DNA from: Prochlorococcus sp. MIT 0701
Lineage (GTDB): Bacteria > Cyanobacteriota > Cyanobacteriia > PCC-6307 > Cyanobiaceae
Assembly (NCBI RefSeq): GCF_000760295.1
Contig: NZ_JNBA01000027.1
Location: forward strand, 1 to 64,000
Direction of reading: 5' to 3'
Length of the DNA stretch: 64,000 bases
This document shows positions 7,073 to 20,500 of this stretch, in pieces. The notes below the pieces were generated by a model. The model was not told where the DNA came from. It did no database searches and saw nothing but the letters and a program-made list of their open reading frames with translations. The translations under genes were made by a program, and so were the position numbers. Positions within the stretch are counted from its first letter, which is position 1; every line of letters starts with the position of its first letter.

Positions 7073-7301
7073 CGAAGGGTTCCTGATCGATCAGATGCAC
7101 GTATGGAGCTGTCAGCTCAGGGCGATGAATCGCCAAAGCCCTCAATAGATGCCAATCGCCCAACCCGGCAAAGGGCGTGGGGTAATCGTCATCTTCAAGA
7201 CGCCTAGCGAGGACCGCAGTTGCCTCATCATCAAAGGCCTCAAGACGTTCTGGAGTAATCGCACCAGCAATATCCATGGAAAGCACCTTGGAGTTCCGCA
7301 T
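7062..7301 (-). CDS. DUF2555 family small protein
   Basis: A 79-residue acidic protein (LEAFDDEATAVLARRLEDDDYPTPF, then GLGDWHLLRALAIHRPEL) resembling the short cyanobacterium-restricted DUF2555 family. Function unknown. Its 3' end overlaps the coaBC start by 11 bp, which suggests coupled translation. A second ATG eight codons in (MDIAGAIT) could be the real start. Confidence 0.75.
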   Translation of the reverse strand: MRNSKVLSMDIAGAITPERLEAFDDEATAVLARRLEDDDYPTPFAGLGDWHLLRALAIHRPELTAPYVHLIDQEPFDED

Positions 7302-7359
7302 GGAGTTTGCTCAAGCAAGGAGCAGCTTCATTCTGCCTGGACGCTAGGTTCCTGCCGCT

Positions 7360-7432
7360 GGGGAATTAGCTCAGTTGGTAGAGCGCTGTGATCGCACCGC
7401 AGAGGTCAGGGGTTCGAATCCCCTATTCTCCA
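7360..7432 (+). tRNA. tRNA-Ala (anticodon CGC)
   Basis: A 73-nt cloverleaf: acceptor GGGGAAT pairs with ATTCTCC, the D arm is GCTCAGTTGGTAGAGC, the anticodon stem CTGTG/CGCAG holds loop ATCGCAC (anticodon CGC, decoding GCG), and the T arm is AGGGGTTCGAATCCCCT. Discriminator A; CCA is not encoded. Confidence 0.95.
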
Positions 7433-7506
7433 TTCAGGTCTCAACGAGATCGATTGCTATAGAGAGGCTTGTCATATGCAAATCCGCTTAGACAAGTCCT
7501 AAGGCC

Positions 7507-7743
7507 ATGGAGTTTCCTCTTCGAAGTATCCGTAAGCACAAACATCAGATCCTGATTGGACTGGCAGGTCTTGTCATGATGACCGTGATAACACGTCCTT
7601 CAGCCCTACTCACATTTGCCTTAATTGCCCTTGCAGGAAATCTGACATGCGGGCGCAAGCACTCTTTGACAGTCCATGCGTTAAAAGAGAGTGAAGAAGG
7701 ATCTGGTCCTCAATGTCGCAATCAAAACGTGAACAGGTGGTGA
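7507..7743 (+). CDS. Putative small membrane protein
   Basis: A 78-residue frame with a basic N-terminus and one or two hydrophobic stretches (ILIGLAGLVMMTVI and ALLTFALIALAGNL), followed by a polar tail. An AAGG sits just before the ATG. The 3' end overlaps the start of the next gene in another frame. No family recognised; the tail could be non-genuine. Confidence 0.4.
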   Translation: MEFPLRSIRKHKHQILIGLAGLVMMTVITRPSALLTFALIALAGNLTCGRKHSLTVHALKESEEGSGPQCRNQNVNRW

Positions 7744-7913
7744 GTCATCTTCGCTACATCCGCCAAGAGCTACGAGAAATGCACCAAGGAGTCATGGAAG
7801 ATGGCCTTCTCCCCGAAGCAGGTGAGGTGCGTGGAGTGATGGCACAGATGGAGGCTCTGCTTGAGCTACTCGAAGGCAAGTCATCGCGTAAAGCCAAAGC
7901 CGAAGCCAGTTAA
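7713..7913 (+). CDS. Conserved-looking small helical protein
   Basis: A 66-residue protein, highly charged and helical (VVSHLRYIRQELREMHQGV, then EVRGVMAQMEALLELLEGK) with a basic C-terminus. An AAGGA motif lies about 12 bases before the ATG. It is followed by a probable terminator. The pattern is typical of short cyanobacterial conserved proteins of unknown function; no catalytic motif is visible. Confidence 0.65.
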   Translation: MSQSKREQVVSHLRYIRQELREMHQGVMEDGLLPEAGEVRGVMAQMEALLELLEGKSSRKAKAEAS

Positions 7914-7925
7914 TCGCCCAGATCA

Positions 7926-7955
7926 CTTGCCAAACTCTGCCTAGCAAGCTTTTTT
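7926..7955 (+). terminator. Probable terminator after the 7713 gene
   Basis: A short CTTGC/GCAAG stem with a 13-nt loop is followed directly by a T-run (CTTTTTTATT). The stem is only 5 bp, so efficiency is uncertain. Confidence 0.5.
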
Positions 7956-8018
7956 ATTCAAATCCACTAACTATTGGAGAGAATGAAGACACATAGGCCA
8001 CAAGTGTTGCAAAAGGGT

Positions 8019-8078
8019 CTGGCAGGATTCCAGGCTGGGTGATGGGGGGTTCAACTCAGTCCAACCCTGCCAGTTTTT
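8019..8078 (+). promoter_or_regulatory. Terminator-like hairpin in the ycf20 leader (attenuator or small RNA 3' end)
   Basis: A perfect 8-bp stem CTGGCAGG/CCTGCCAG closes a 39-nt loop that can form a smaller GGTT/AACC helix, and TTTTT follows at once. The T-run ends four bases before the ycf20 ATG at 8083. This is either the 3' end of a small RNA beginning upstream or an attenuator that transcription must pass to reach ycf20. Confidence 0.45.
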
Positions 8079-8082
8079 ACTT

Positions 8083-8424
8083 ATGCCCCAACAGCTTCAG
8101 TTCACTCGCTTTCAACGCAGTGTTGGTCAAGCAGGAGAGCGACTGGAATTTTGGGCTGTGAACCCATGGCGGAGAAGCTCATTGTTTGTGATCGTTTTAT
8201 TAATAACCTTTCTGTTAGGCAGCTCGGTTGGAACGATCAGTGGCGCGTTAGACCTCATGGACCCCATCGGAGCCCTTCTCACTGTCGTGATTTGGGAAGT
8301 GATGGTGCGATTACGGCGCCAGTGGCCTGCTCCCAAACGGGCCGTTCTGGCACGCCAATTATTAGACATGGCAAGGATTGGTCTGCTTTACGGCCTGCTC
8401 CTAGAAGGCTTCAAGTTGTTGTGA
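8083..8424 (+). CDS. ycf20: Ycf20-like protein (DUF565)
   Basis: A 113-residue membrane protein matching the Ycf20/DUF565 family conserved in cyanobacteria and plastids. The diagnostic stretch is RLEFWAVNPWRRSSL, followed by a first membrane helix (LFVIVLLITFLLGSSVGT) and a second hydrophobic region near LLTVVIWEVMV. The plastid and plant members have been linked to photoprotection, but the exact role is unsettled. The gene lies directly behind a terminator-like hairpin. Confidence 0.9.
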   Translation: MPQQLQFTRFQRSVGQAGERLEFWAVNPWRRSSLFVIVLLITFLLGSSVGTISGALDLMDPIGALLTVVIWEVMVRLRRQWPAPKRAVLARQLLDMARIGLLYGLLLEGFKLL

Positions 8425-8503
8425 TCTAAGTGAGAAGCATGACCTCAAAGGAAATTGCCAACATGCTCCATATCCTTCAAGCAACACCATCCTCAGAGGG
8501 AGC

Positions 8504-10015
8504 ATGGGCAAAGACCACTTCTTCCTCGAATTAGAGCCACCAGAAGAACGCCTACGCCGTGCACCCCATGTTGTGATTATTGGCGGTGGGTTTGCAGGAG
8601 TGCGTGCTTGCAAAGCTCTCGCCAATACAGAGGTGCGCGTCACTCTGATCGACAAAAGAAATTTCAACCTCTTCCAACCCCTCCTCTACCAAGTCGCTAC
8701 AGGCCTTGTCTCCAAAGGAGATGTGGCCACCCCCCTACGCCAATTGGTTGGCAGGCAATTCAATGTGCAAGTTCTGCTCGGTGAAGTCACCCAGCTCAAT
8801 CCGCAAGACAAACAGATCGTTTTCAATAACAAAAGCTTGAGTTACGACTACCTCGTGCTCGCTACCGGCTCTGGCAGCACCTACTTCGGGCATGAGGAAT
8901 GGCGCAGCTTTGCTCCACCGATGAAAATCCTTGAGCACGCCGAAGAAATCCGGCGTCGACTCCTGATGGCGATGGAGCAGGCCGAACAAACACCCGACCC
9001 CAACGCCCGTCAATTCCTACAGAGCGTCGTGATTGTGGGTGCAGGGCCCACTGGCTGCGAGATGGCAGGAGCCGTATCTGAGTTAATGCGCAATGCCATG
9101 CGCCGTGAATTCAAACAACTCAATCCGGACCAAACCAAGATCTACTTGGTTGATCCTGGCGAAAGGGTGCTGCGCGCCATGCCTGAAATGTTGTCGAAAT
9201 CAGCCCGCACGACTCTCGAATCACTCGGTGTAGAAATGATTTTCAAAGGCAGGGTGCAGTCCATGCAACCCGGCGAGGTAATGATTAGCACCCCGAATGG
9301 TGATCAGTATCTTCAGGCCGCAACCGTGATCTGGACAGCTGGCGTGCGTCCTTCGCACCTTGGCCGCAATTTGGCCGACTCGATCGGTTGTGAACTCGAC
9401 AAGGGGGGGCGAATCGTTGTGGAACCAGACTTTTCCGTTGCCGGCCATCCCGAAATCCGAGTCGTTGGAGACCTCTGCTCCTATCGGCACACAACCAATC
9501 AGACACCCCTACCTGGCATGGCCGGCCCAGCTACGCAAGCCGGCGGATTTGTAGGCAAAGACATCGCTGCACTAGTGAGCGGGTCATCCCGGCCAACATT
9601 CAACTGGTTTGATTTCGGCAGCATGGCGGTTCTTGATCGTGTAGCAGCGGTGGCAGATCTGCGTGGCTTCAAATTCTCAGGAGGGATTGGCTGGATGTGC
9701 TGGGCTCTTGCCCACTTGGCCTTCATGCCCAACCCAGAGAACCGCATCACGCTGCTTTTTAAATGGTTAGTAGCCGTGGTGTCTCAACAACGCTCATCGA
9801 TGCTGCTCACGGGAATGCCCAGCCAGCACATCGACATTGATGCCCCAGATGCTCATTTCCCAATGCAGCCTGGTTTAGGCCCCTCAATCGCAGCACCGGA
9901 CGCAGCACTACAAGCCGCCATGAAGTACTACAGCACTCAGATCGCAGGCATAGCTTCTCAGCCAATGGCTGCTAAGGAAGGATCTGGGGAAGAATCAACA
10001 GCTGCCATCAAATAA
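8504..10015 (+). CDS. Type II NAD(P)H dehydrogenase (NDH-2 family)
   Basis: A 503-residue single-subunit flavoprotein that passes electrons from NAD(P)H to quinone without pumping protons. The FAD Rossmann motif is [10 protein letters not shown] (about residues 21-30) and the second, NAD(P)-binding, motif is [34 protein letters not shown]-type quinone-side segments follow ([10 protein letters not shown] here). The C-terminal region contains a partly hydrophobic amphipathic stretch consistent with membrane attachment. Cyanobacteria carry several NDH-2 types and I cannot say which subgroup this is. Its 3' end overlaps pyrB tail to tail by 58 bp. Confidence 0.92.
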
Positions 10016-11004
10016 AGCAAGGCCATACGGATAGGAATGCCATTGCGCACCTGCTCTTCGACAAGGCTGATGGAGTGATCATCCAGTAATGATCCACCCA
10101 ACTCAACCCCTCTGTTCACAGGCCCAGGATGGAGCAGAGGTACAGGCTTCCCGCATAACTTGAGGCGCTCGTGGGTGAGCCCATAATCACGATGAAAGCG
10201 GTTTAGATCAGTAAGCAAATGCTGATGCATCCTTTCCTTCTGCAACCTCAAAGTCATCACCGCATCCGCACCAGGCAAAGCCTCCTCAAGGGTTCGCACC
10301 ACCTCCACACAACCACGATGTTGAACCGGGTCATGGGCCTGACCAGGAGGTGGCGCCTCGACAAAAGCAACAAAATCTTGAGGAACCAGGCTCGGCGGAC
10401 CACACAACACAACATCTGCACCGCAGGCAGTGAGTGCCCAAAGGTTGGAACGCGCCACACGTGAATGGAGAACGTCTCCAACGATCACGATCCGCTTGTC
10501 CTGAAGAGCTTCAGGCAGAGGGTGATCCGGATCAAAATGATGGGCAAGTGTATAGAGATCAAGCAATCCCTGGCTGGGATGGCTATGCAACCCATCGCCA
10601 CCATTGAGCACAGCCGTGCGTTCGCCTGAACGATCTAAAGCACAAGCAAGCTGTTCGGGAACACTGGTCGAGCTATGACGCACCACCAGCACATCAGCGC
10701 CCATGGCTACATAGGTGCGCGCTGTATCAAGCAAAGTCTCTCCCTTACTGAGTGAACTGCTCGCTGGAGTAAAACTCTGCACATCAGCCGAAAGACGCCG
10801 CGCCGCCAACTCAAAGCTGCTTCGGGTGCGAGTACTGGGCTCAAAAAACAACGTTGCCACCAAACGCCCCTGCAACGCCGGCAACTTGCGCGCACCCGTG
10901 ACAGGCATGGAGCGGAAGCGATGCGCTAGCTCCAGAACAGAGCTGTAATCCTCAAGGGAGAAGCTGGCCAGATCAAGGATGTGTCGATGGGACCAACCGC
11001 TCAT
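9958..11004 (-). CDS. pyrB: Aspartate carbamoyltransferase catalytic subunit
   Basis: The 348-residue enzyme condenses carbamoyl phosphate with aspartate in pyrimidine synthesis. The carbamoyl-phosphate loop [24 protein letters not shown] and LHPGPVNRG are all intact. The ATG at 11004 overlaps the mpg stop codon (ATGA arrangement), so it is translationally coupled to mpg upstream. No regulatory-chain gene (pyrI) is near, as expected for cyanobacteria. Confidence 0.97.
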
Positions 11005-11669
11005 TGGCCATCATTGGCAACAGGAGCCCAGGCTTGTTGCAAAGGCGGAGTGCGATCTCCCTTGGCACGGCGACTAATGCTGCGACAGTTCTTGAGATAC
11101 CAACGCCAAGGAATGTCTTGTCCTTGAGAGATACCGATCCTGGTTGTGCTCACAATCGTTGGCGTACCGAAATCAGCCGGCCTAGGTGCCAGCCACAGGT
11201 CATTCTCTCCTGTGACGGCTCTTCTGTCATCGGAGCGATCCAAACCAAAACGACGCGCCAATAAAGCGGGACCCGCAGCGACGCGTTCCGGTTCATCCGG
11301 AAGTGCAATCGCCCTCAACAAAACACCATTAGCCCATTCAGAGCGATCCGTAACCACATTCACGCAGTGGTGAATGCCATAACTCACATACACATAGAAC
11401 CGCCCAGGCTCACCAAACAGCGTTTCGTTTTGCGGTGAGCGGCGGCGATAGCCGTGGCAGGCGGGCTCTGCCTGGGAATACGCCTCCGTTTCCACAATCA
11501 CACCCCAGAGCAAGCTTTCATCGGCTTGGCGTTTCACCAAGCGGCAGCCAATCAATTCGGGGCCCACCACCTCTGCAGGGCGGCAGAAGAAGGATTGAGG
11601 CAGAGCTGGGAAATCCTTGGTGATGTGCTGGGTGGCTATGGGGGTGGCTGGAGCAACAACCTTCTTCAC
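11001..11669 (-). CDS. DNA-3-methyladenine glycosylase (AAG/MPG family)
   Basis: A 222-residue base-excision repair glycosylase. Family landmarks are [14 protein letters not shown] near the N-terminus, VIVETEAY with the catalytic glutamate, [15 protein letters not shown], and LLRAIAL. The start is GTG at 11669 (GTG AAG AAG), 59 bp from the divergent prochlorosin-type gene, so the two share an intergenic promoter region. Codons 1-55 and that promoter were duplicated next to the second precursor gene at 12.8 kb. Downstream it is coupled to pyrB. Confidence 0.93.
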
Positions 11670-11936
11670 CCAAGTCTGACAACGCTGCTTGGAGGAAGGA
11701 CAATTGAATTATCTACATTCTTTCCCTGATGTCAGAAGAGCAACTCAAAGCATTCCTTGAAAAAGTCAAAGCTGACACCAGCCTTCAGGAGAAGCTGAAA
11801 GCAGCTGCTAATTTTGATGCAGTTCTTGCGATTGCGAAAGAGGCTGGGTTTATTATTTCTGCTGATGAAATTAACCAAGCTCAATCCGAACTTTCAGAAG
11901 AACAACTTTCAGAAGAAGAGCTGGAAGGCGTGGCTG
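11505..11936. repeat. Copy 1 of the duplicated mpg-5'/promoter/procA-leader block
   Basis: The first 55 codons of mpg, the 59-bp divergent intergenic region and the leader half of the precursor gene match the block at 12756-13166. The mpg parts differ at only four of 55 residues. Similarity stops where the precursor leader ends (VAG), so the cores are unrelated. Confidence 0.8.
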
Positions 11937-11986
11937 GGAGCTGGAAGGCGTGGCTGTCTTTCAGACAGAAAATTTGTTTTTATTAA
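11729..11986 (+). CDS. Prochlorosin-type lanthipeptide precursor with Nif11 leader (probably frame-disrupted core)
   Basis: An 85-residue peptide whose first about 69 residues are a Nif11-type leader ([25 protein letters not shown], then ELSEEELEGVAG), as in ProcA substrates of the class II lanthipeptide synthetase ProcM. In this frame only 16 residues follow the leader (SWKAWLSFRQKICFY region), with one cysteine, a poor lanthionine substrate. A 19-bp sequence is tandemly duplicated exactly at the leader/core junction (11918-11936 and 11938-11956). After it, the +1 frame stays open to 12137 and encodes three cysteines. The annotated ORF is therefore probably a mutated form of a longer precursor. 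No lanM gene is in the window, so modification would have to act in trans. Confidence 0.8.
   Translation: MSEEQLKAFLEKVKADTSLQEKLKAAANFDAVLAIAKEAGFIISADEINQAQSELSEEQLSEEELEGVAGSWKAWLSFRQKICFY
11918..11956. repeat. 19-bp tandem duplication at the leader/core junction
   Basis: GAGCTGGAAGGCGTGGCTG occurs at 11918-11936 and again at 11938-11956 with one base between. It covers the ELEGVAG codons at the end of the leader. The period is 20 bp, which is not a multiple of three, so it changes the downstream frame. Confidence 0.9.
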
Positions 11987-12137
11987 TGGAAGCTGCAGAG
12001 ACTCGGTGTGTTATGAGCAAGCTTATTATGAGCAGAGAATGGAGATATGGCGTAGGCGAGGGAGAATAAAGTGGGAGAGTGCAACTGGGGATGGGATTGG
12101 AGAATATAATAAGAAAACGGGGAAGTGGGAGAGTTAG
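11957..12137 (+). pseudogene. Out-of-frame core region of the first precursor
   Basis: In the frame one base ahead of the leader, the DNA after the duplication reads LSDRKFVFINGSCRDSVCY and continues EQAYYEQRMEIWRRRGRIKW to a TAG at 12135-12137. If one 19-bp copy is removed, ELEGVAG joins this frame directly and gives a core of about 58 residues. Its length is close to the 55-residue core of the neighbouring gene. It contains serines, threonines and two cysteines after the junction, plus a third if the repeat-encoded GC is counted. Confidence 0.5.
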
Positions 12138-12174
12138 CGGGTGCAACTGGGAACTTTGGAGGAGCGGGGATCCG

Positions 12175-12197
12175 GTTAGCTAGTTAGCTAGTTAGCT
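12175..12197. repeat. 8-bp tandem repeat GTTAGCTA x 2.9
   Basis: Two full copies and one 7-base partial copy of GTTAGCTA lie between the out-of-frame core and the terminator. No function is evident. Confidence 0.85.
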
Positions 12198-12292
12198 CTT
12201 TCTGGTTATACTTTGTGACAAGAAAAGACAGGACTAACACAATAAGAGAACTGTATGTATAAAAATGATGAAAAGCTTACTCACCCCCATTG

Positions 12293-12316
12293 CCCCTGCA
12301 GTGACAGGGGTTTTTT
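12293..12316 (+). terminator. Rho-independent terminator downstream of the first precursor gene
   Basis: CCCCTG/CAGGGG with a 6-base loop is followed by TTTTTT. It lies about 310 bp past the short ORF stop and about 155 bp past the stop of the +1-frame core, so the transcript would include the longer core. Confidence 0.88.
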
Positions 12317-12359
12317 ATTGCTTTAATTACCCCATACCCACCATCAATCAGCATCCGAT

Positions 12360-12661
12360 ACCTGGCACCACTGACAACAAAATAGTCATAGCTTTCACCC
12401 ATCTAGTCGTCTAATCCATCCACAAAAAATACAAGGCAGAGCAAACAAAGCCTCAGCTTTCTTTAGTCCTACATCTATTCATATCCCCTCAACGCAACTG
12501 CCAAAACCTTCGCTCCCTATCACCATCACGGATGCCATTGGCTCGTCTAAATCTCAGCGCCACCTGATGCCACTCCTCTGGGATTTGATTGAGCCGAACA
12601 TCAAATGCAAATGGGAGTTGCTGTTGCCCTGGTGAGACCCGTTTCTTCTTGCTTCTGTTGC
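12360..12661. repeat. About 300-bp direct repeat, copy A
   Basis: From the shared CCTGGCACCACTGACAACAA motif to GTTTCTTCTTGCTTCTGTT this block matches 13372-13671 with scattered substitutions. It includes the 3' part of a minus-strand reading frame. The two copies flank the second precursor gene as direct repeats. Confidence 0.85.
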
Positions 12662-12755
12662 TCCTGCTGCTCTGAACCAATCGCTTCAGCATCCTTGAGC
12701 CCCAGTGGCACTTGGCTGCTCCTTTGGCGTGATGGCGATACGTCCGAGATAACGC
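12489..12755 (-). pseudogene. C-terminal fragment of an unknown protein family, copy A
   Basis: This stretch supplies residues 56-143 of a chimeric open frame that starts in the truncated mpg copy. Its end reads [20 protein letters not shown], then an arginine-rich finish and a stop at 12489. The same C-terminus appears at 13501-13671 and, more diverged, near 39190-39290. Differences between copies preserve the protein sequence better than chance, so it derives from a real gene family that I do not recognise. Confidence 0.5.
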
Positions 12756-12920
12756 CCAAAGCAGGCTTCCATCCGCTTGGCGTTTCACCAACCGGCAGCC
12801 GATGAGGTCAGGTCCAACAACTTCTGCAGGACGCCAGAAGAAGGATTGAGGTAGTGCTGGGAAATCCTTGACGATGTGCTGAGTGGCTATGGGCGTGGCT
12901 GGAGCGACAACCTTCTTCAC
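12756..12920 (-). pseudogene. Truncated duplicate of mpg (first 55 codons)
   Basis: Codons 1-55 of the glycosylase gene (through [15 protein letters not shown]) are repeated here with four amino-acid changes, then homology ends before the catalytic ETEAY motif, so this copy cannot be an active glycosylase. The frame continues into an unrelated fragment to 12489. It is divergent from the second precursor gene with a 62-bp gap, copying the mpg/precursor arrangement at 11.7 kb. Confidence 0.8.
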
Positions 12921-13166
12921 CGAAGTCTGAACAACGCTGCTTGCACAAGAGACAATGAAATGAACGAAGCCCTTTCGCTCAGATGTCAGAAGAGCAACTC
13001 AAAGCCTTCCTGGAGAAGGTCAAAGGTGACACCAGCCTTCAGGAGAAGCTAAAGGCAGCTGCTGATTCAGACGCAGTTCTAGCGATTGCGAAAGAGGCTG
13101 GCTTTAGCATCTCTGCTGATGACTTTGGGAACGCTCAATCAGAGCTTTCTGAAAAGGAGCTGGAAA
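12756..13166. repeat. Copy 2 of the duplicated mpg-5'/promoter/procA-leader block
   Basis: Matches the block at 11505-11936: truncated mpg start, divergent promoter region and precursor leader. It shows how the precursor was duplicated together with neighbouring DNA rather than alone. Confidence 0.8.
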
Positions 13167-13351
13167 GCGTGGCTGGTTCCGGCGGGCTGGCGAGTGTGCT
13201 AGGTATTTGTACGCGCGGGCGGGTCGGGGTTGGTTGCCAACATAACCTATCTGCATTGGAGAAACGCGCCTTTGGGATGTGCAACGCGCCTTCAACCTAT
13301 AAAACGAGGCCGGGGTGTCCGGGGTATGCCCAACATATGCGGGGTAAGTAA
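12983..13351 (+). CDS. Prochlorosin-type lanthipeptide precursor with long four-cysteine core
   Basis: A 122-residue precursor. Residues 1 to about 66 are the Nif11-type leader ([41 protein letters not shown]). The core of about 55 residues starts near [12 protein letters not shown] and holds four cysteines (ICT, VGCQ, GMC, GCPG) plus six Ser/Thr, enough for several lanthionine rings. It ends basic (QHMRGK). ProcA cores that I know of are usually about 13-32 residues, so this one is long. Cleavage probably follows the VAGSGG region, as double-glycine-type leaders do. A synthetase and exporter must be encoded elsewhere. Confidence 0.85.
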
Positions 13352-13371
13352 CGCGTCAATCAGCCTTCAAT

Positions 13372-13671
13372 ACCTGGCACCACTGACAACAAAATAGTCA
13401 TAGCTTTCACCCATCCAACCGCCTAATCCATCCACAAAAAATACAAGGCAGAGCAAATAAAGCCTCCGCATTCTTTAGCCTTACATCTACTTATATCTCC
13501 TCAACGCAACTGCCAAATACTTCGCTCCCTATCACCATCACGGATGCCATTTGCCCGTCTAAATCTCACCGCAACCTGATGCCAGTCTTCTGGAATTTGA
13601 TTGAGCCGAACATCAAATGCAAATGGGAGTTGCTGTTGCCCTGGTGAGACCCGTTTCTTCTTGCTTCTGTT
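13372..13671. repeat. About 300-bp direct repeat, copy B
   Basis: Second copy of the 12360-12661 block. It begins 20 bp after the second precursor stop and ends at the 3' end of the DUF481 gene region. Confidence 0.85.
13501..13671 (-). pseudogene. C-terminal fragment of an unknown protein family, copy B
   Basis: The minus strand encodes [19 protein letters not shown] then EDWHQVAVRF and an arginine-rich end, stop at 13501, almost identical to copy A. The open frame extends to 13746, but those extra codons are merely antisense-frame bases of the DUF481 gene. No start codon belongs to the fragment itself, so it is a remnant. Confidence 0.6.
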
Positions 13672-13684
13672 TCTTCTAGAAGAA

Positions 13685-14686
13685 TTAAAACTCTGTGCCG
13701 AGTTTAAAATTAAATGTATTATTAATATCAGGTGAATGAAGAGCACTATAAATTAGTCGAGCCACTAAAGACATATAAAATTTAGAGTTTTTGGAAGGGA
13801 AAAACTTTAGCGTACCACTCAAATCATTTCCTGCCGCCATGCCATTGACGAATGATCCTGTCAACTGATCATTAATTGACAGGCGAAATTGCTCATTCAC
13901 ATCCCATTCTATGGCAGCCCCTATTGTTCCAGATGGAATGATCTCACCGCAATATTTTTCCAATGCAATTCCATCCGAAACGTAATCACCTGTGCTGCAA
14001 CCAGAGCCACCATCAAACCAGATCAGAGAAGGGCCTAAAGAGACTCTCAGAGATAATTTCTTATTATCTAAAACCTTATAGCCAACACCAACTGAAAAAA
14101 CATTCGTGTTAACGCCAACATCATTGAGAGCATTGTAAGTGTAATCTGTGGAGGCATATGTACTCCATTTGGGAGAAGGTAAAGTTCTGTCATAGCGAAT
14201 AGAGAATGCGCCTTGATTCGTATCAATCGTTGACACACTTTCAGTATCTACACTCTTATCAAAGTCAAAGCTCGCTGAAGCATTCAACTCATGATCCGTT
14301 CCCTTGAAACGAGTGGACGCCGAAAGAGAATAGCCAAATGACAAATCATCTCCCGTATTCGATCCATCAATGCCAACATCAACCGAGCTGAGCCATCGCG
14401 ATGGAGTGGGCTCTGGTTTAATGAAAGAGGTATCAATCTCAATGCGACCAAAATAAGGACTAAGAAGGACTTTCACCTTATTGCTACTTTCTTCTGGCAA
14501 GTACTCGCCACTGACCACATCTCCGTTAATCAGTTTAAATGTAAGATTTTCAGCTCGTGCATATTGAGGCACAATCATTGCACCAATGGCAGCAAAAGCA
14601 TAAACCCTCTTAGCCAGCAAGGATGAAAGATAGGTCAAAGACAGGTCAAGAACACGGTCAATACTATAAACGAAAACACCTCTCAT
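13685..14686 (-). CDS. DUF481-type outer-membrane protein
   Basis: A 333-residue secreted protein. A signal sequence ends near MIVPQYARA|ENLTF. A short domain about LINGDVVSGEYLPEE precedes repeated amphipathic strands (GYSLSASTRFKGTDHELNASASFDF, GVGYKVLDNKKLSLRVSLGP) and it ends in a beta-strand with terminal Phe (FNFKLGTEF), typical of beta-barrels. This pattern fits the DUF481/YdiY family, where some members are salt-induced. The gene is isolated between the repeat region and a non-coding stretch and is AT-richer than its core neighbours. Confidence 0.8.
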   Translation of the reverse strand: MRGVFVYSIDRVLDLSLTYLSSLLAKRVYAFAAIGAMIVPQYARAENLTFKLINGDVVSGEYLPEESSNKVKVLLSPYFGRIEIDTSFIKPEPTPSRWLSSVDVGIDGSNTGDDLSFGYSLSASTRFKGTDHELNASASFDFDKSVDTESVSTIDTNQGAFSIRYDRTLPSPKWSTYASTDYTYNALNDVGVNTNVFSVGVGYKVLDNKKLSLRVSLGPSLIWFDGGSGCSTGDYVSDGIALEKYCGEIIPSGTIGAAIEWDVNEQFRLSINDQLTGSFVNGMAAGNDLSGTLKFFPSKNSKFYMSLVARLIYSALHSPDINNTFNFKLGTEF

Positions 14687-15269
14687 GTAAGCCTTCTAAG
14701 CTCAGAGACTAGCCCTTATATAATAAATTCACATGTTCACTATCAGCTCAAAATCTGAGTTCACTGCTGCAGAGATCTGAATTAGATTCAAAAGAATTGT
14801 CCTTAAATATTCAACTAAAACCACAAGCAACAGGCCCCAGCATGGCAAATAAGCCTGGAACGAACCATTCCAATCAAGAACTCATGCATCACCATTGCAA
14901 GAGAAAACCCCATCATAAAAGTGAACCAATTAAGGCAAACGCTCTATAGCCATCAACTGCCGACAGAGTCCATGACTTCACAATCTGCGAGGAGAGCTCT
15001 TATTCCCTCTCTTACCGTTGATTAATATCGCCAACACCTTCATCCAAAGATTGGATCTCTGATCGATCCGCTTCCTTGAACAACTGAGCCGAAATTTTTA
15101 CGCCCTACAGGCAGCTTGAAAAGCATCAGGAACTAAAGCGTCCTCTGATTTAGCTACACATTTCTTTCGTGGCCGCCATGCTGTTGTTCAGAACCCAAGG
15201 TTGCGACAACAAGACCATTGGTTCAACAGCAGCACCTAATAATCCCTCGTCAAAGCATCCCTCCCCATC
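14687..15269. other. Non-coding stretch of about 580 bp
   Basis: I find no convincing coding frame. It should hold the divergent promoters of the DUF481 gene and of the 15270 gene. At 15179-15231 an 8-bp inverted repeat TGCTGTTG/CAACAGCA with an inner AACC/GGTT pairing could form a stem-loop about 40 bp upstream of the next gene. Confidence 0.5.
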
Positions 15270-16058
15270 ATGTCCTTCACCCTGCCCGGCGCCGTCAGCA
15301 GCGTCGACTCCATTCGCCTAGCCCTGCGTAGCTGGCCAGAAGTGGACGACTATCTGAACCATTGCCAGGGCGTGATCCTGCCAATTGGATCCACCGAACA
15401 ACATGGACCCACTGGCGCGATTGGCACCGATGCACTCACGGCTGAAGCAGTAGCTCTTGAAGTCGGCCGTCGCACAGGGGTGCTTGTCACACCGACCCAA
15501 GCCTTCGGGATGGCTGAACACCATCTCGGTTTCGCCGGAACGATGAGCTTAAAACCCGCCACTCTGCTCGCATTGATCCACGATCTCGTGATATCCCTTG
15601 CCAACCATGGCTTCGAGCGGATCTTTGTGATCAACGGGCATGGCGGCAATATCGCCACCACTAAGGCCGCCTTTGCCCAGGCCTACAGCAGCGCAATCAG
15701 CAACGACCTTCCCGTGGCATCCAAACTGCGATGCAAACTGGCCAACTGGTTTATGGCGGGCTCTGTCTTTCGCGCAGCCAGAGAGTTATATGGCGATCAA
15801 GAAGGCCAGCACGCCACTCCCAGCGAAATTGCTCTCACCTTGCACATAGAACCCAGTCTGCTCAGCAAACAACGGCCTCTACCGGAGCCAGCCCCTGCAG
15901 GACCAATCCACGGCCCGGAGGATTTCCGCCGACGGCATCCGGATGGCCGCATGGGCTCAAACCCCTACCTCGCTAAGCCAGAGCATGGTGCCTCATTGCT
16001 AGAGACAGCGGCTACCGCGTTGAGCGAAGATCTAACAAGCTTCCTTACCGCAGCATGA
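15270..16058 (+). CDS. Creatininase family amidohydrolase
   Basis: A 262-residue metal-dependent amidohydrolase. Characteristic motifs are [12 protein letters not shown] (metal-binding E and H), [25 protein letters not shown], and [11 protein letters not shown]. Known members act on creatinine, formamidopyrimidines or mycofactocin precursors; the substrate here cannot be told from the sequence. The stop codon overlaps the gatC start by 4 bp, so it is coupled to gatC. Confidence 0.9.
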
Positions 16059-16348
16059 GCAAGATCACCGCCAAAGACGTACGCAAAGTGGCCCAGCTAG
16101 CTCGCCTAGACCTGCCAGATGATCAGATCGCGACCTATACAGAGCAGCTAGAGAAAATCCTTGCTTACGTGGCCCAGCTTGAAGAAATTGACACCGCGAA
16201 CGTAAAGCCCACCACTCGAGCAGTAGAAGTGGTGAATGTGACGCGTACTGACGAGGTGTCTGCGACTCCAGTACGCGAAGAACTGCTAGATCTTGCCCCT
16301 CAACGCGAAGGCGACTTCTTCAGAGTGCCAAAGATTTTGGCCGAATAA
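16055..16348 (+). CDS. gatC: Asp-tRNA(Asn)/Glu-tRNA(Gln) amidotransferase subunit GatC
   Basis: A 97-residue small subunit of the GatCAB complex that converts Glu-tRNA(Gln) to Gln-tRNA(Gln). The family pattern [20 protein letters not shown], then [16 protein letters not shown] and the C-terminal [12 protein letters not shown], is complete. It overlaps the upstream gene by 4 bp (ATGA). Its stop directly abuts the end of convergent crtR. Confidence 0.96.
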
Positions 16349-17386
16349 TCAACGCTTCTTGGGTTCTGGCAAGACAGCAGTGCGATGCAACAAAGCAATC
16401 CAGCGTCGCCGCCAGCGGCGGCTGGGTATCAATTTGGCTAGTGGACGCATCTTGCTACGACGTGCTGTGTGGCTACGGACGCCCAAAACGATGTCATAGA
16501 GAAAATTAAACCCATCGGCTCTACTTTCAAAAAATCCGAGTCGCTGAGGTGATCCCCTGGCATCCAATAGAGGTTTTGTTGCTTCGTAGGCCGGCTTATA
16601 CTCAAACCAGGGAATAGACGGCCATAAATGATGAACAAGATGATAATTCTGACCCATAATTAACCAATTCATCATCCTGCTTGGATATACTCTGGCGTTA
16701 TGCCAACGGTCCCGTGCAGTAAAGGGACGATGGGGCAAATAGTCAAAGAAAAGGCCCAGGGTGACCCCAACCATTAAGGCAGGGCCAAACCAACAATTAT
16801 AAACAAAATTCATGAAGTCAAAATGAAGACCAGCAATCACAATTGAAACAAAAAAACCTCGCTCAAGTCCCCACTGCATCAGCTCAAAGCGACGCCATAA
16901 ACGTCGTTGAAAAAAGAAATATTCATGATAGAAAAACCGCGGCGCAATCAACCAAAGCGGGCCAAAAGTGCTAACAATGTGATCCGGATCATTGTTGGGA
17001 TCATTCACATGTGAGTGATGCTGAAGGTGCACTCTTGTGAACACAGGAAAACTAAAGCCCAGTAAAATTGCTGAACCATGACCCATGGCCTGATTAATCC
17101 AAGGATTCGGATGAGCCGCCTTATGACAAGCGTCATGAATCACCGTGCCTTCCATATGCAAGGCGAAGAACGCCAACGCCACCAGAACTTGTAAAGGCCA
17201 ATCACCAAAACACCACTGCCAAATCGTTAGAGCCGCCAAGCCATAACCGCCCAGGAACAATCCCACCGTGGGATTCCAAGGGGAAGGCGGATCGAGGTAC
17301 TCCTTCGGCACCGTTAGCTGTTGAGAAGCCGACTTGGAGCTGGCTTCAGCCTCAACAGGATCCGGGTTGGAGAGTACCTGAGTCAT
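16349..17386 (-). CDS. crtR: Beta-carotene hydroxylase
   Basis: A 345-residue membrane di-iron hydroxylase of the fatty-acid-desaturase-like CrtR type, converting beta-carotene to zeaxanthin. The histidine boxes HDACHKAAH, HLQHHSHVN and HLVHHLWPSIPW-type are intact, with hydrophobic helices between them. Zeaxanthin is a major pigment of marine picocyanobacteria. The C-terminus beyond about residue 300 is basic (SRRWRRRW). It converges on gatC with no gap. Confidence 0.93.
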   Translation of the reverse strand: MTQVLSNPDPVEAEASSKSASQQLTVPKEYLDPPSPWNPTVGLFLGGYGLAALTIWQWCFGDWPLQVLVALAFFALHMEGTVIHDACHKAAHPNPWINQAMGHGSAILLGFSFPVFTRVHLQHHSHVNDPNNDPDHIVSTFGPLWLIAPRFFYHEYFFFQRRLWRRFELMQWGLERGFFVSIVIAGLHFDFMNFVYNCWFGPALMVGVTLGLFFDYLPHRPFTARDRWHNARVYPSRMMNWLIMGQNYHLVHHLWPSIPWFEYKPAYEATKPLLDARGSPQRLGFFESRADGFNFLYDIVLGVRSHTARRSKMRPLAKLIPSRRWRRRWIALLHRTAVLPEPKKR

Positions 17387-17432
17387 GAAATGGAAACATA
17401 CCCCCTGATCAAACCAAGGGCTTTAAAAAGGA

Positions 17433-17514
17433 TGCCCACCGGGGGACTTGAACCCCCACGACCTAAGCCACTGGTACCTAAAACCAGCGCGTCTACCAAT
17501 TCCGCCAGATGGGC
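17433..17514 (-). tRNA. tRNA-Leu (anticodon UAG)
   Basis: An 82-nt class II tRNA on the minus strand. Acceptor GCCCATC pairs with GGTGGGC, the D loop has GGCGGAATTGGTAGACGC, the anticodon stem CTGGT/ACCAG holds loop TTTAGGT (UAG), the variable arm is GTGGCTTAGGTCGT, and the T arm is GGGGGTTCAAGTCCCCC. CCA is not encoded. Confidence 0.95.
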
Positions 17515-17559
17515 ACGTACTGAACTCTAAACACCACTCCAGAATGGGCCTACACCGTT

Positions 17560-20500
17560 GTGCCAAAGATGCTGGCCACCCTCCTCGGGGAGTTCTCTCT
17601 CCTGCTCGGCCTGGCAGTACTCCTGCTACCGCTGCTTGCCACTGAACTCAGTCGCCCCCGTGACGGGCTGTGGGGAGCTGTGGTGCTCATGCTGGGGCTG
17701 GGGCTGATCACCAGCAGCGACCGCTGGCAGGGGACCCCAATGCTGGCAGTGATCTGTGGCGCACTACTCGTGAGCAGGCTCGGGGTGGAAGTCGCCCAAA
17801 ACCGCTGGCAACAACTCAGTGCGGATGATCAGCAAGGGCTGATTTCTCGGGAGCGATGGACCACCAGCCTCAAGCAACTAGGAGCCTCTATCGCAAACCT
17901 GGGCAGCACCCTCAAGGGATTGATGGAACGGGTGCGGCCAAAAGCAAATGCAAGCAATAAGAAATGGGTGAGTCCTGAACCAACCGCCGACCAAGACTCA
18001 GCTTTGTCCAACGAGATCACATCAGCGGAGGGATCTGAACCCAGCCCTGAATCAGGGGAAAGCCCTGAGCCTCTTACCACTGATAGCTTCAAACAACTGT
18101 TGGCCTCACTGGCAAGCATCGGTGACAGGCTCAACGGGTTGATCGAACGGGTGCAGCCAAAACCAAACGCAAGCAATAAGAAATGGGTGCGGCCTGAACC
18201 AAACGCAGTCCAAAACTCAGCACCAGCTATTGAGCAACAGCCATCTACAAACCAACCTTCATCAGCAAATCAACAAGCCGCCAACATTCCCCCAGCGGTG
18301 TCAACCGAGGCGACACCAGCCGATCAAGCAAAAACCAACTCTGAACTTAAAGAAAGTTCTACGGCTCAAGCCAATACCAGCCTCAAGACATCGTTAGCCC
18401 CCAAGCAGACCGCTGAGCATCAATCAGAAGATCAGCAACCCGCTGAGAGCAAACAAACTGTTGACGTTGGCAGAACTGACTCCCCTAAAGACTCAACACA
18501 CCCTGAAGCAAAGGTTCAAGAACGCCAAGAGCAGAAAACAAGCCAGCAGCAGACTTCAAAGCCACAGCAAACTTTTGACCAACAGCCAACTGAAACTCAA
18601 CAGCCAACTGAAACTCAACAGCCATCTCAAACTCAACAGCCATCTCAAGCTCAACAGCCATCTCAAGCTCAACAGCCATCTCAAGCCCAACAGCCCAAAG
18701 ACATCCCCCAAGAGGCTCCCACCAAGGCCCCAACAGATAGCGAACCAGAAACAACTTCAGACACTGAAGACATTCAAGAGACTCCAGCGGTAAAAACTGA
18801 ATCGAAACAGCCTTCCATTGATAATCTCTCCTGCTGCAGTGACACCGTGACCCAGGAAAAACACCCGGATGGTGTTGCACGAACCTCCTACAAGGACACT
18901 CTCAACCTCTTGCAAACCAGCTTTGGCATGCGCGCCAATGCAAGCCAACGAGAACCAGAGTTACAAGAGTTCTGGAAGCAACAAGGCATTGATTTACAGC
19001 TTGGCCTGAACAATCAGGGCCAAAACTTCACCCTTCATGACGGGCCGCCCTACGCCAATGGAGCCCTGCATATGGGCCATGCCCTCAACAAGGTGCTGAA
19101 AGACATCATCAACAAGCATCAAATCCTGCGTGGCCGTCAAGTGCGTTTCGTGCCCGGTTGGGACTGCCACGGCCTTCCGATCGAACTGAAGGTGTTGCAG
19201 AACCTCAATCAAGAGCAGCGCGAAGCACTCACACCACTGAAATTGCGCAAGAAAGCCGCAGCCTTTGCACGCAAGCAAGTGGACAGCCAAATGGCAGGCT
19301 TCCGCCGCTGGGGCGTCTGGGCCGACTGGGAGCATCCCTACCTAACGCTCCAGAAGGAATACGAAGCCGCCCAAATCCAAGTATTTGGCACGATGTTTCA
19401 AAAGGGATACATCTATCGGGGACTCAAGCCGGTGCACTGGAGTCCCAGCTCCCGTACAGCCCTTGCTGAAGCGGAGTTGGAATATCCAGACGGTCACACC
19501 AGTCCAAGTGTCTACGCTGCTTTTCCAGCAGCGAAACTGCCCGAGAGCTTGCGCACATCTCTTAGCAATCAGGGCCTGGAGCTACCGAATAACGGCCTCG
19601 AACTCGGCCAGGCTCTTCAAATTGCAATCTGGACCACCACCCCCTGGACTCTTCCCGCCAACCTTGCGGTTTCGGTCAACGAGAAACTCGACTACTCCTT
19701 TGCAGTTGACAACCAAGGTCGACTACTACTAGTGGCCGCTGAATTGTTGCCATCGTTACGCGACACCCTCGCGCTGGAACTCACAGCTCGCGCCACTGTC
19801 AAGGGAGCCCTTCTTGCAGGTCTTATCTACAAACACCCACTACTGGATCGAGACAGTCCGATCGTGATCGGTGGTGAATACATCACCACCGAATCGGGAA
19901 CTGGTCTTGTGCACACGGCCCCAGGCCATGGTGTCGACGACTTCAATACAGGCCAAAAGAACGACCTGGGCATGCTCTGCCCAGTAGACGAAAGCGGAAC
20001 AATGACAAGTGAGGCGGGTCCATTCGCTGGTCTCAACGTGCTCAAAGACGCCAACCCCACCATCATTGCGGCACTTGAGGAAAGAGGTGCTCTGCTGAAG
20101 CACGAACCCTATGCCCACCGCTACCCCTATGACTGGCGAACAAAGAAACCCACCATTTTTCGCGCCACAGAGCAATGGTTTGCCTCTGTCGAAGGCTTCC
20201 GCAATGAAGCATTGACAGCCATCAACAGCGTGGAGTGGCTACCAGCCTCGGGCCGCAATCGCATTGAAGCGATGGTGCGAGAACGGGGCGACTGGTGTAT
20301 TTCCAGGCAGCGCACTTGGGGCGTACCGATTCCAGTGTTCTACGAGCGAGAAGGCAATGAGGTGCTGTTGAACGACGAGACCCTTGCTCATATCAAGGCC
20401 CTGATCACAGAACATGGTGCCGACGTGTGGTGGGAACGCAACGAAGTCGAGCTATTGCCACCGGCCTATGCCGCAGAAGCTGAACGATGGCGCAAAGGAA

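Follow-up and report, generated by a model that had tools for sequence, protein, structure and literature searches.

Prochlorosins are a prime example of combinatorial diversity among natural peptides, and they raise the question of how new core peptides reach conserved leaders. These peptides (ProcA/SyncA) are class II lanthipeptides with a Nif11 leader that are modified by ProcM/SyncM (PMC10783134). We considered this question at a locus of Prochlorococcus sp. MIT 0701 where two Nif11-leader precursor genes stand in tandem, each divergent from the start of the same DNA repair gene. The window is the whole stretch of DNA that was analysed, 64,000 nucleotides from one contig of a 2.59-Mb picocyanobacterial draft genome (53 contigs). 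Units 1 and 2 are its two precursor units, those of procA1 and procA2, and G-numbers denote compared genomes.

Two precursor units beside a repair gene

The intact mpg gene (11001–11669, minus strand, GTG start at 11669) encodes a 3-methyladenine/methylpurine DNA glycosylase; it matches PF02245 with an E-value of 3.4e-48 over profile positions 1–180 of 181, a complete Pur_DNA_glyco domain, and its body is 92–97% identical to mpg of genome G003. The 5′ end of this gene forms the left arm of unit 1. It is separated by a divergent spacer of 59 bp (11670–11728; promoter type I) from procA1 (11729–11986, plus strand), a Nif11-leader precursor gene with its ATG at 11729, a leader at ∼11729–11937 and the in-frame core SWKAWLSFRQKICFY (profile matches PF07862, 4.7e-18, and TIGR03798, 1e-25). 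A 20-bp tandem repeat lies at the leader/core boundary (11918–11957, plus strand, repeat starts at 11918 and 11938). On the 3′ side of procA1, pattern matching suggests a terminator-like hairpin with a T run (12292–12317, plus strand), and a similar hairpin with a T run comes after the core of Synechococcus UW105. Then comes a conserved 24-bp motif (CGATACCTGGCACCACTGACAAC...; 12352–12375, plus strand), found 3′ of the core in many precursor genes; copies 90–100% identical stand beside Nif11 genes in the same genome and in G003.

Between the two precursors, on the minus strand, a 3′ fragment of an IS200/REP-type transposase (RAYT) gene, located by tblastn at 12501–12744, covers residues ∼185–264 in the 3′ flank of procA1; it is 81% identical to an intact RAYT of G003 (tblastn), the family being assigned by PF01797. 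This fragment is joined to a fragment of mpg, hereafter mpg′ (12755–12920, minus strand, codons 1–55, 86% to mpg), and according to the list of open reading frames and the junction alignment the two make one in-frame ORF of 143 aa (12489–12920, minus strand), mpg codons 1–55 plus the RAYT C-terminus. A second divergent spacer, of 62 bp (12921–12982; promoter type II), leads to procA2 (12983–13351, plus strand; ATG at 12983), with its leader at 12983–13177 and a core with four Cys at 13178–13348 (PF07862, 7.8e-19; TIGR03798, 1.8e-25). By alignment, its 3′ flank (13356–13677, minus strand) again consists of the 24-bp motif and a RAYT 3′ fragment.

A sequence-only reading of this locus had placed both precursors divergent from the same first 55 codons of mpg, and alignment bears this out: identity is 86% over 166 nt of mpg (11504–11669 versus 12755–12920) and ∼84–85% over the leader, and the block from mpg 5′ end to leader aligns between the units with E = 1e-117. 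The promoter regions, described there as similar and 60 bp long, do have such sizes (59 and 62 bp), but their likeness, at 63–69% identity, is weaker than claimed. The second mpg copy is indeed cut before the active site: it ends ...SLLW, just ahead of the segment GVIVETEAY, which we take to contain the catalytic Glu (the active-site position of MPG/AAG), and with codons 1–55 only, this copy is predicted to be no working enzyme.

A third shared block had been overlooked. The segment 12344–12665 aligns with 13356–13677 over ∼320–322 bp at 92% identity (E = 2e-134), the latter being 94% identical to one of the G003 units described below (G003-B). A test set beforehand asked whether identity was confined to the coding leader; this is excluded, as the mpg 5′ end and the 3′ flank align too. 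The non-homologous interior, from the leader end to the 3′ flank, measures ∼407 bp in unit 1 and ∼178 bp in unit 2. What is repeated, therefore, is mpg 5′ end–promoter–leader–core–RAYT 3′ end, and inside this unit only the core is non-homologous. The duplication unit proposed earlier, mpg 5′ end plus promoter plus leader, does not hold for the window pair: since the 3′ flank is repeated too and homology resumes after the core, the unit reaches beyond the leader/core breakpoint. Judged from the sequences, chance is excluded as a source of this repeat, and copies that have diverged by 8–17% are no echo of the assembly.

The precursors and their modification

Both precursors have a Nif11-type leader with a GG-type site; the leaders end in VAG/S, not VAGG. 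The core of procA2 has its four Cys together with several Ser/Thr, that of procA1 one Cys and one or two Ser. The procA1 core is probably frameshifted: the 20-bp repeat shifts the frame, and leader DNA is re-read as core, SWKAWL. procA1 may have acquired a frameshifted core recently, or it may be decaying. At 11882–11916 there is also a near-15-bp tandem repeat (CTTTCAGAAGAACAA / CTTTCAGAAGAAGAG) that gives the procA1 leader five additional residues just before the 20-bp repeat; the adjoining repeats point to two slippage-type events at one leader end.

The genome has one LanC-like match (4.6e-40), which lies within a 1092-aa open frame at contig C7:6478. At least one LanC-like gene is present in 10 of the 13 genomes checked; UW140, G139 and G100 are without one despite carrying mpg′ scars or a native gene. 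With a LanC-like enzyme encoded, the precursors can plausibly be modified. We infer their expression, and their modification by the single LanC/LanM-like enzyme of the genome; promoter-like matches are near chance level. A further open frame of this genome, 166 aa long (contig C23:41183–40827; positions 7531–7684 of the extracted locus L054), has two Nif11-type leader segments in a row.

Nature of the 3′ flank

Whole or partial copies of the 3′ flank number 36 in the same genome, and 28 and 15 in two congeners, and often adjoin Nif11 genes. On the minus strand one reading frame is kept in nearly all copies; in several of them it lengthens to a full protein of ∼264 aa with the motif NHLHLL, which is of the HUH type. 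The intact 264-aa relative matches PF01797 (IS200-like Y1 transposase) with an E-value of 9.6e-15 and scores 61.7 bits (E 7e-17) against the REP-associated tyrosine transposase model NF047646, whose cut-off is 80. This homology identifies the 3′ flank as the 3′ end of a RAYT-type gene, and the window has RAYT C-terminal fragments only. A known RNA had been considered for the repeat; an Rfam scan of 9000–16500 gave no match, and the RAYT gene end proved to be the answer.

The mpg–procA–RAYT locus in related genomes

A full mpg gene with a divergent procA is found in the window, in UW105 and in G282, G261, G317, G299 and G100, and we read this pair as a native locus common to Prochlorococcus and marine Synechococcus. 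In UW105, mpg and the divergent procA (core AVSEFCTAQDCVSVQRC) are accompanied by a convergent full-length RAYT gene, as they are in G282 and G261; G317 and G299 have a RAYT fragment there, and G100 has no RAYT. WH7803 carries a divergent Nif11 gene in the same place, with a Cys-free core. The idea that the N-terminal extension of mpg is upstream DNA of procA and not coding was rejected, as UW105 and others align from residue 2–3.

G003, a single contig of 2,410,873 bases, presumably shares several prochlorosin cores with MIT9313. Its mpg locus is syntenic with the window on both sides (window 7205–11738 at 95%, 13362–19134 at 92%); it keeps only a 10-nt leader remnant, ATGTCAGAAG, and the syntenic 3′ flank. 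Between these two, ∼7.8 kb of other DNA (1909532–1917335) stands in place of the procA unit at mpg. Synteny, leader remnant and 3′ flank make it most likely that the ancestor had mpg–procA–RAYT′, RAYT′ being a RAYT fragment.

Stray mpg fragments and shared junctions

The window copy is the only mpg′ in its genome. Three strays occur in G003, here called A (913864–914133), B (1710522–1710803) and C (2244178–2244252), each with a Nif11 leader directly after it. We searched 300 family genomes for mpg′, scoring at most two candidates per genome, so that counts are minima; full scoring of 15 genomes with local annotation yielded 23 partial mpg fragments. At 14 of these (one each in the window, UW105 contig C7, G317, G163 and UW140, three in G003 and six in G215) a Nif11 leader stands divergent within ∼120 bp; at nine no leader was detected. 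With at most ∼100 leaders per 2.6-Mb genome, we estimate that a random site would lie that close to a leader, in the right orientation, in well under 1% of cases. The search of related genomes for procA genes flanked by mpg fragments, proposed with the sequence-only reading, was thus productive, and the cassette-like re-use of mpg 5′ end, promoter and leader that it envisaged is widespread among them. Related leaders lacking an mpg fragment also exist (G003 969887 and 1004599, and contig C36:728 of the window genome).

The mpg fragments stop near residue 25, 55, 63, 69, 84, 90, 94 or 106–109 and so have no fixed end; the RAYT pieces begin at many different residues. One and the same RAYT|mpg junction (RAYT ∼180, mpg ∼90) is present in G003-A, G317 and UW105 C7, that is, in three genomes of two genera, which suggests that one chimeric ancestor reached two genera and different sites. 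The junction alignment indicates that the window junction could be this same junction, shortened by ∼100 bp at a shared ATAC. In UW140, mpg′ is in tandem with RAYT′.

Fusion ORFs of mpg′ and RAYT′, of 140–187 aa, are open in four genomes: the window (12489–12920), G317 (760291–760803), UW105 C7 (68924–69436) and G215 (1190731–1191078). For G317 and UW105 C7, whose common junction is still open in frame, the mpg part of the fusion has dN/dS of ∼0.10. Such open fusions could have been converted by intact genes or could be fusion genes under maintenance; that they are kept genes may be considered as a side possibility. Second mpg-like copies are located near mpg in Synechococcus MU1642 (locus L108, 2874–3176, with an in-frame stop) and in Cyanobium usitatum Tous (locus L131, 1001–1312), and no Nif11 leader was detected beside either.

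Conserved leaders and differing cores

G003-A and -B share 448 identical nucleotides (913940–914387 in A), which span mpg′, the spacer and the leader as far as codon 65 and stop at the GG codons; downstream, the A core AGVTEATIDAGGGCTFNPCCR and the B core AQSAGGCGICECDNRQSTSCHYPSHG are unrelated. An abrupt breakpoint at the leader/core boundary, as had been postulated, is clearly seen in this pair of loci, not in the window. The 3′ flank of A is nearest to that of a neighbouring array gene at 906436 (87.5% over 750 nt) and the flank of B to that of the window (90–94%), while A and B flanks are 81% identical to each other; being of different types, they identify A as a 5′/3′ chimera. A and B could be paralogues of older date whose 5′ parts were made alike by gene conversion; this process alone would account for their identical leaders, not for their different cores. 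In G003-C and in the UW105 C7 unit the mpg′ spacer precedes a different leader subfamily. A second case of leader re-use with core change is seen at G003 905453 and 906436, where two neighbouring precursors have the same leader protein but cores that are unrelated.

An orthologous locus (contig C36:118418 in the window genome, C7:83683 in G2) has 92% identity on the 5′ side and 94% on the 3′ side of cores that are different. Over nine units, cores match one another about as well as shuffled sequence does, leaders are 77–99% identical and most 3′ flanks 82–96%, those of A and G261 being more distant (61–73%). Orthologous loci with unlike cores between conserved flanks imply that cores turn over in place, and not after duplication alone. 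The core of unit 2 had no other copy among the Nif11 loci read from five genomes of the genus. When core peptides and core DNA were searched against each other no core donors were found, the matches being those between overlapping frames, those of a single orthologue pair outside the prochlorosins and those starting at the very core end; with no donor for any core, core swapping is visible from its edges only.

Genome G215 contains, at 1661167–1661364 (locus L309) and 1193302–1193499 (locus L311), two precursor genes, over 450 kb from each other, whose leader and core proteins are identical, which we interpret as whole-gene dispersal without core change. It also has two related cores (RIYGIDVDxVGRxASGP) with N-terminal parts that differ.

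Origin of the window pair

The mpg ends of units 1 and 2 differ by dN 0.057 and dS 0.648 (dN/dS 0.09), almost all differences being synonymous. Had the resident mpg been copied recently, few synonymous changes or a neutral mix would be expected, so these values argue against a recent duplication in place. The unit 1 spacer is nearest to that of Synechococcus UW105 (95%; 73% to G003) and the unit 2 spacer to the one at the own mpg of G003 (92%). Addition or exchange of a divergent module thus appears to be favoured over fresh slippage duplication.

In comparisons within the genus, divergence at the mpg 5′ end exceeds that of the gene body (pS 0.36 vs 0.17), which likewise speaks for such an exchange or addition; comparisons with Synechococcus give the reverse pattern. 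A transfer between genera, which the low synonymous divergence of mpg codons 1–90 had seemed to indicate, was weakened as an explanation by control genomes without procA, where the picture is similar: pS of 5′ end and body is 0.34 vs 0.61 at procA-bearing loci and 0.54 vs 0.67 at others, the effect being only somewhat stronger with procA. Since low synonymous divergence of codons 20–90 from the window occurs in procA-less genomes as well, it is not by itself proof of inter-genus transfer; in part it characterizes the gene generally, and inter-genus exchange is no more than suggested. A tree of mpg 5′ ends is nearly unresolved, with support for A+B and one other pair only.

We consider it probable that, at an old native mpg|procA|RAYT locus, recombination through conserved arms has duplicated and exchanged modules, with the cores turning over. 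The window would then hold two precursor modules in tandem at a native locus common to MIT9313-type Prochlorococcus and marine Synechococcus, a module comprising mpg 5′ end, divergent promoter, Nif11 leader, core and RAYT 3′ flank. Modules, or their 5′ or 3′ halves, would be copied to new sites and be exchanged by homologous and illegitimate recombination, with mpg 5′ end, leader and RAYT 3′ end as conserved recombination blocks; fragments of mpg and RAYT would stay behind as scars, and the core between leader and 3′ flank would turn over. The anatomy of the units, the native locus, the scars in several genomes, the shared RAYT|mpg junction, the 448-nt block with unrelated cores and the chimera are direct observations; recombination as the agent is what we infer from them.

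The order and orientation of the units also fit a plain tandem duplication of mpg 5′ end–procA–RAYT′ within the genome, followed by rapid divergence of the cores through point mutations and indels and by decay of the extra mpg end. UW140 with its tandem mpg′ and RAYT′ would be a parallel, and the slippage repeats at the procA1 leader/core boundary are a sign that indels occur. We nevertheless regard this course as unlikely, given mpg ends that differ almost only synonymously, unlike a decaying copy, spacers with different nearest relatives, and the A and B units, identical over 448 nt on the 5′ side with cores that share nothing. In seeing a simple duplication in the window, the sequence-only reading was probably wrong here also. 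Its own version, in which mpg 5′ end, promoter and leader alone were duplicated and came to lie before an unrelated core, the break falling at the leader/core boundary, fits G003-A and -B on the 5′ side, where the 3′ flank of A is of another type, and is possible for G003-A; for the window pair it is contradicted by homology on both sides of the core (92% over 322 bp of 3′ flank), and as a general account it seems quite improbable. That reading was right in spirit, in the cassette re-use of promoter and leader and in taking mpg fragments as tags, and wrong on the unit. Finally, the RAYT transposase itself might mobilize the procA units, procA being the cargo of the element; intact RAYT genes do adjoin procA in several genomes. 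The ragged ends of the mpg′ and RAYT pieces, and the lack of any fixed terminal sequence or clean empty site among the loci seen, make this highly improbable; for cassette B, the flanks are found in contig C12 of the window genome with 4.1 kb of other DNA between them.

Our preferred reading, module exchange at the native locus, admits a wider form, which we advance tentatively and regard as doubtful: procA modules may circulate within and between Prochlorococcus and Synechococcus via the mpg 5′ and RAYT 3′ arms, with the repair gene as a standing docking site for lanthipeptide diversification. If so, any strain with both arms could swap in a module or a core alone.

Comparison with known systems

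The window precursors resemble the prochlorosins in their Nif11 leader, which ends in a GG-type site, and in having cores that are unrelated; here too, precursors are many and dispersed, and the genome encodes a single LanM-type enzyme (PMC10783134). Unlike the prochlorosins described, these two have the 5′ end of mpg as scar or neighbour, a feature for which we found no description in the literature searched; overlap with the preprint on TnpAREP–lanthipeptide association (Laurenceau) is possible. That association is matched by the module in that its 3′ flank comes from the 3′ end of a RAYT/TnpAREP-type gene; our loci add to it, again with possible overlap, an arm from mpg, the junction of RAYT with mpg and the native mpg|procA|RAYT locus. 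Leader conservation, core hypervariability and RAYT association are already known; these three additions, with the junction in its shared form, are not described as far as the literature searched shows.

The mpg fragments serve as a molecular tag: they reveal precursor genes descended from the mpg locus and separate 5′ from 3′ ancestry within a single precursor gene. G003-A and -B and the orthologous native loci are concrete places to date and test core replacement. A variable-peptide gene of picocyanobacteria, when copied or exchanged, often takes along the start of a repair gene, the scar of a re-used module whose working end has been replaced.

The 2017 study of Cubillos-Ruiz reportedly described a conserved leader, diverging cores and lineage-specific gene expansion. 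Our loci resemble that picture of prochlorosin evolution in keeping the leader, in their diverging cores and in lineage-specific expansion, and go beyond it in that mpg′ provides a physical tag for single duplication and exchange events.
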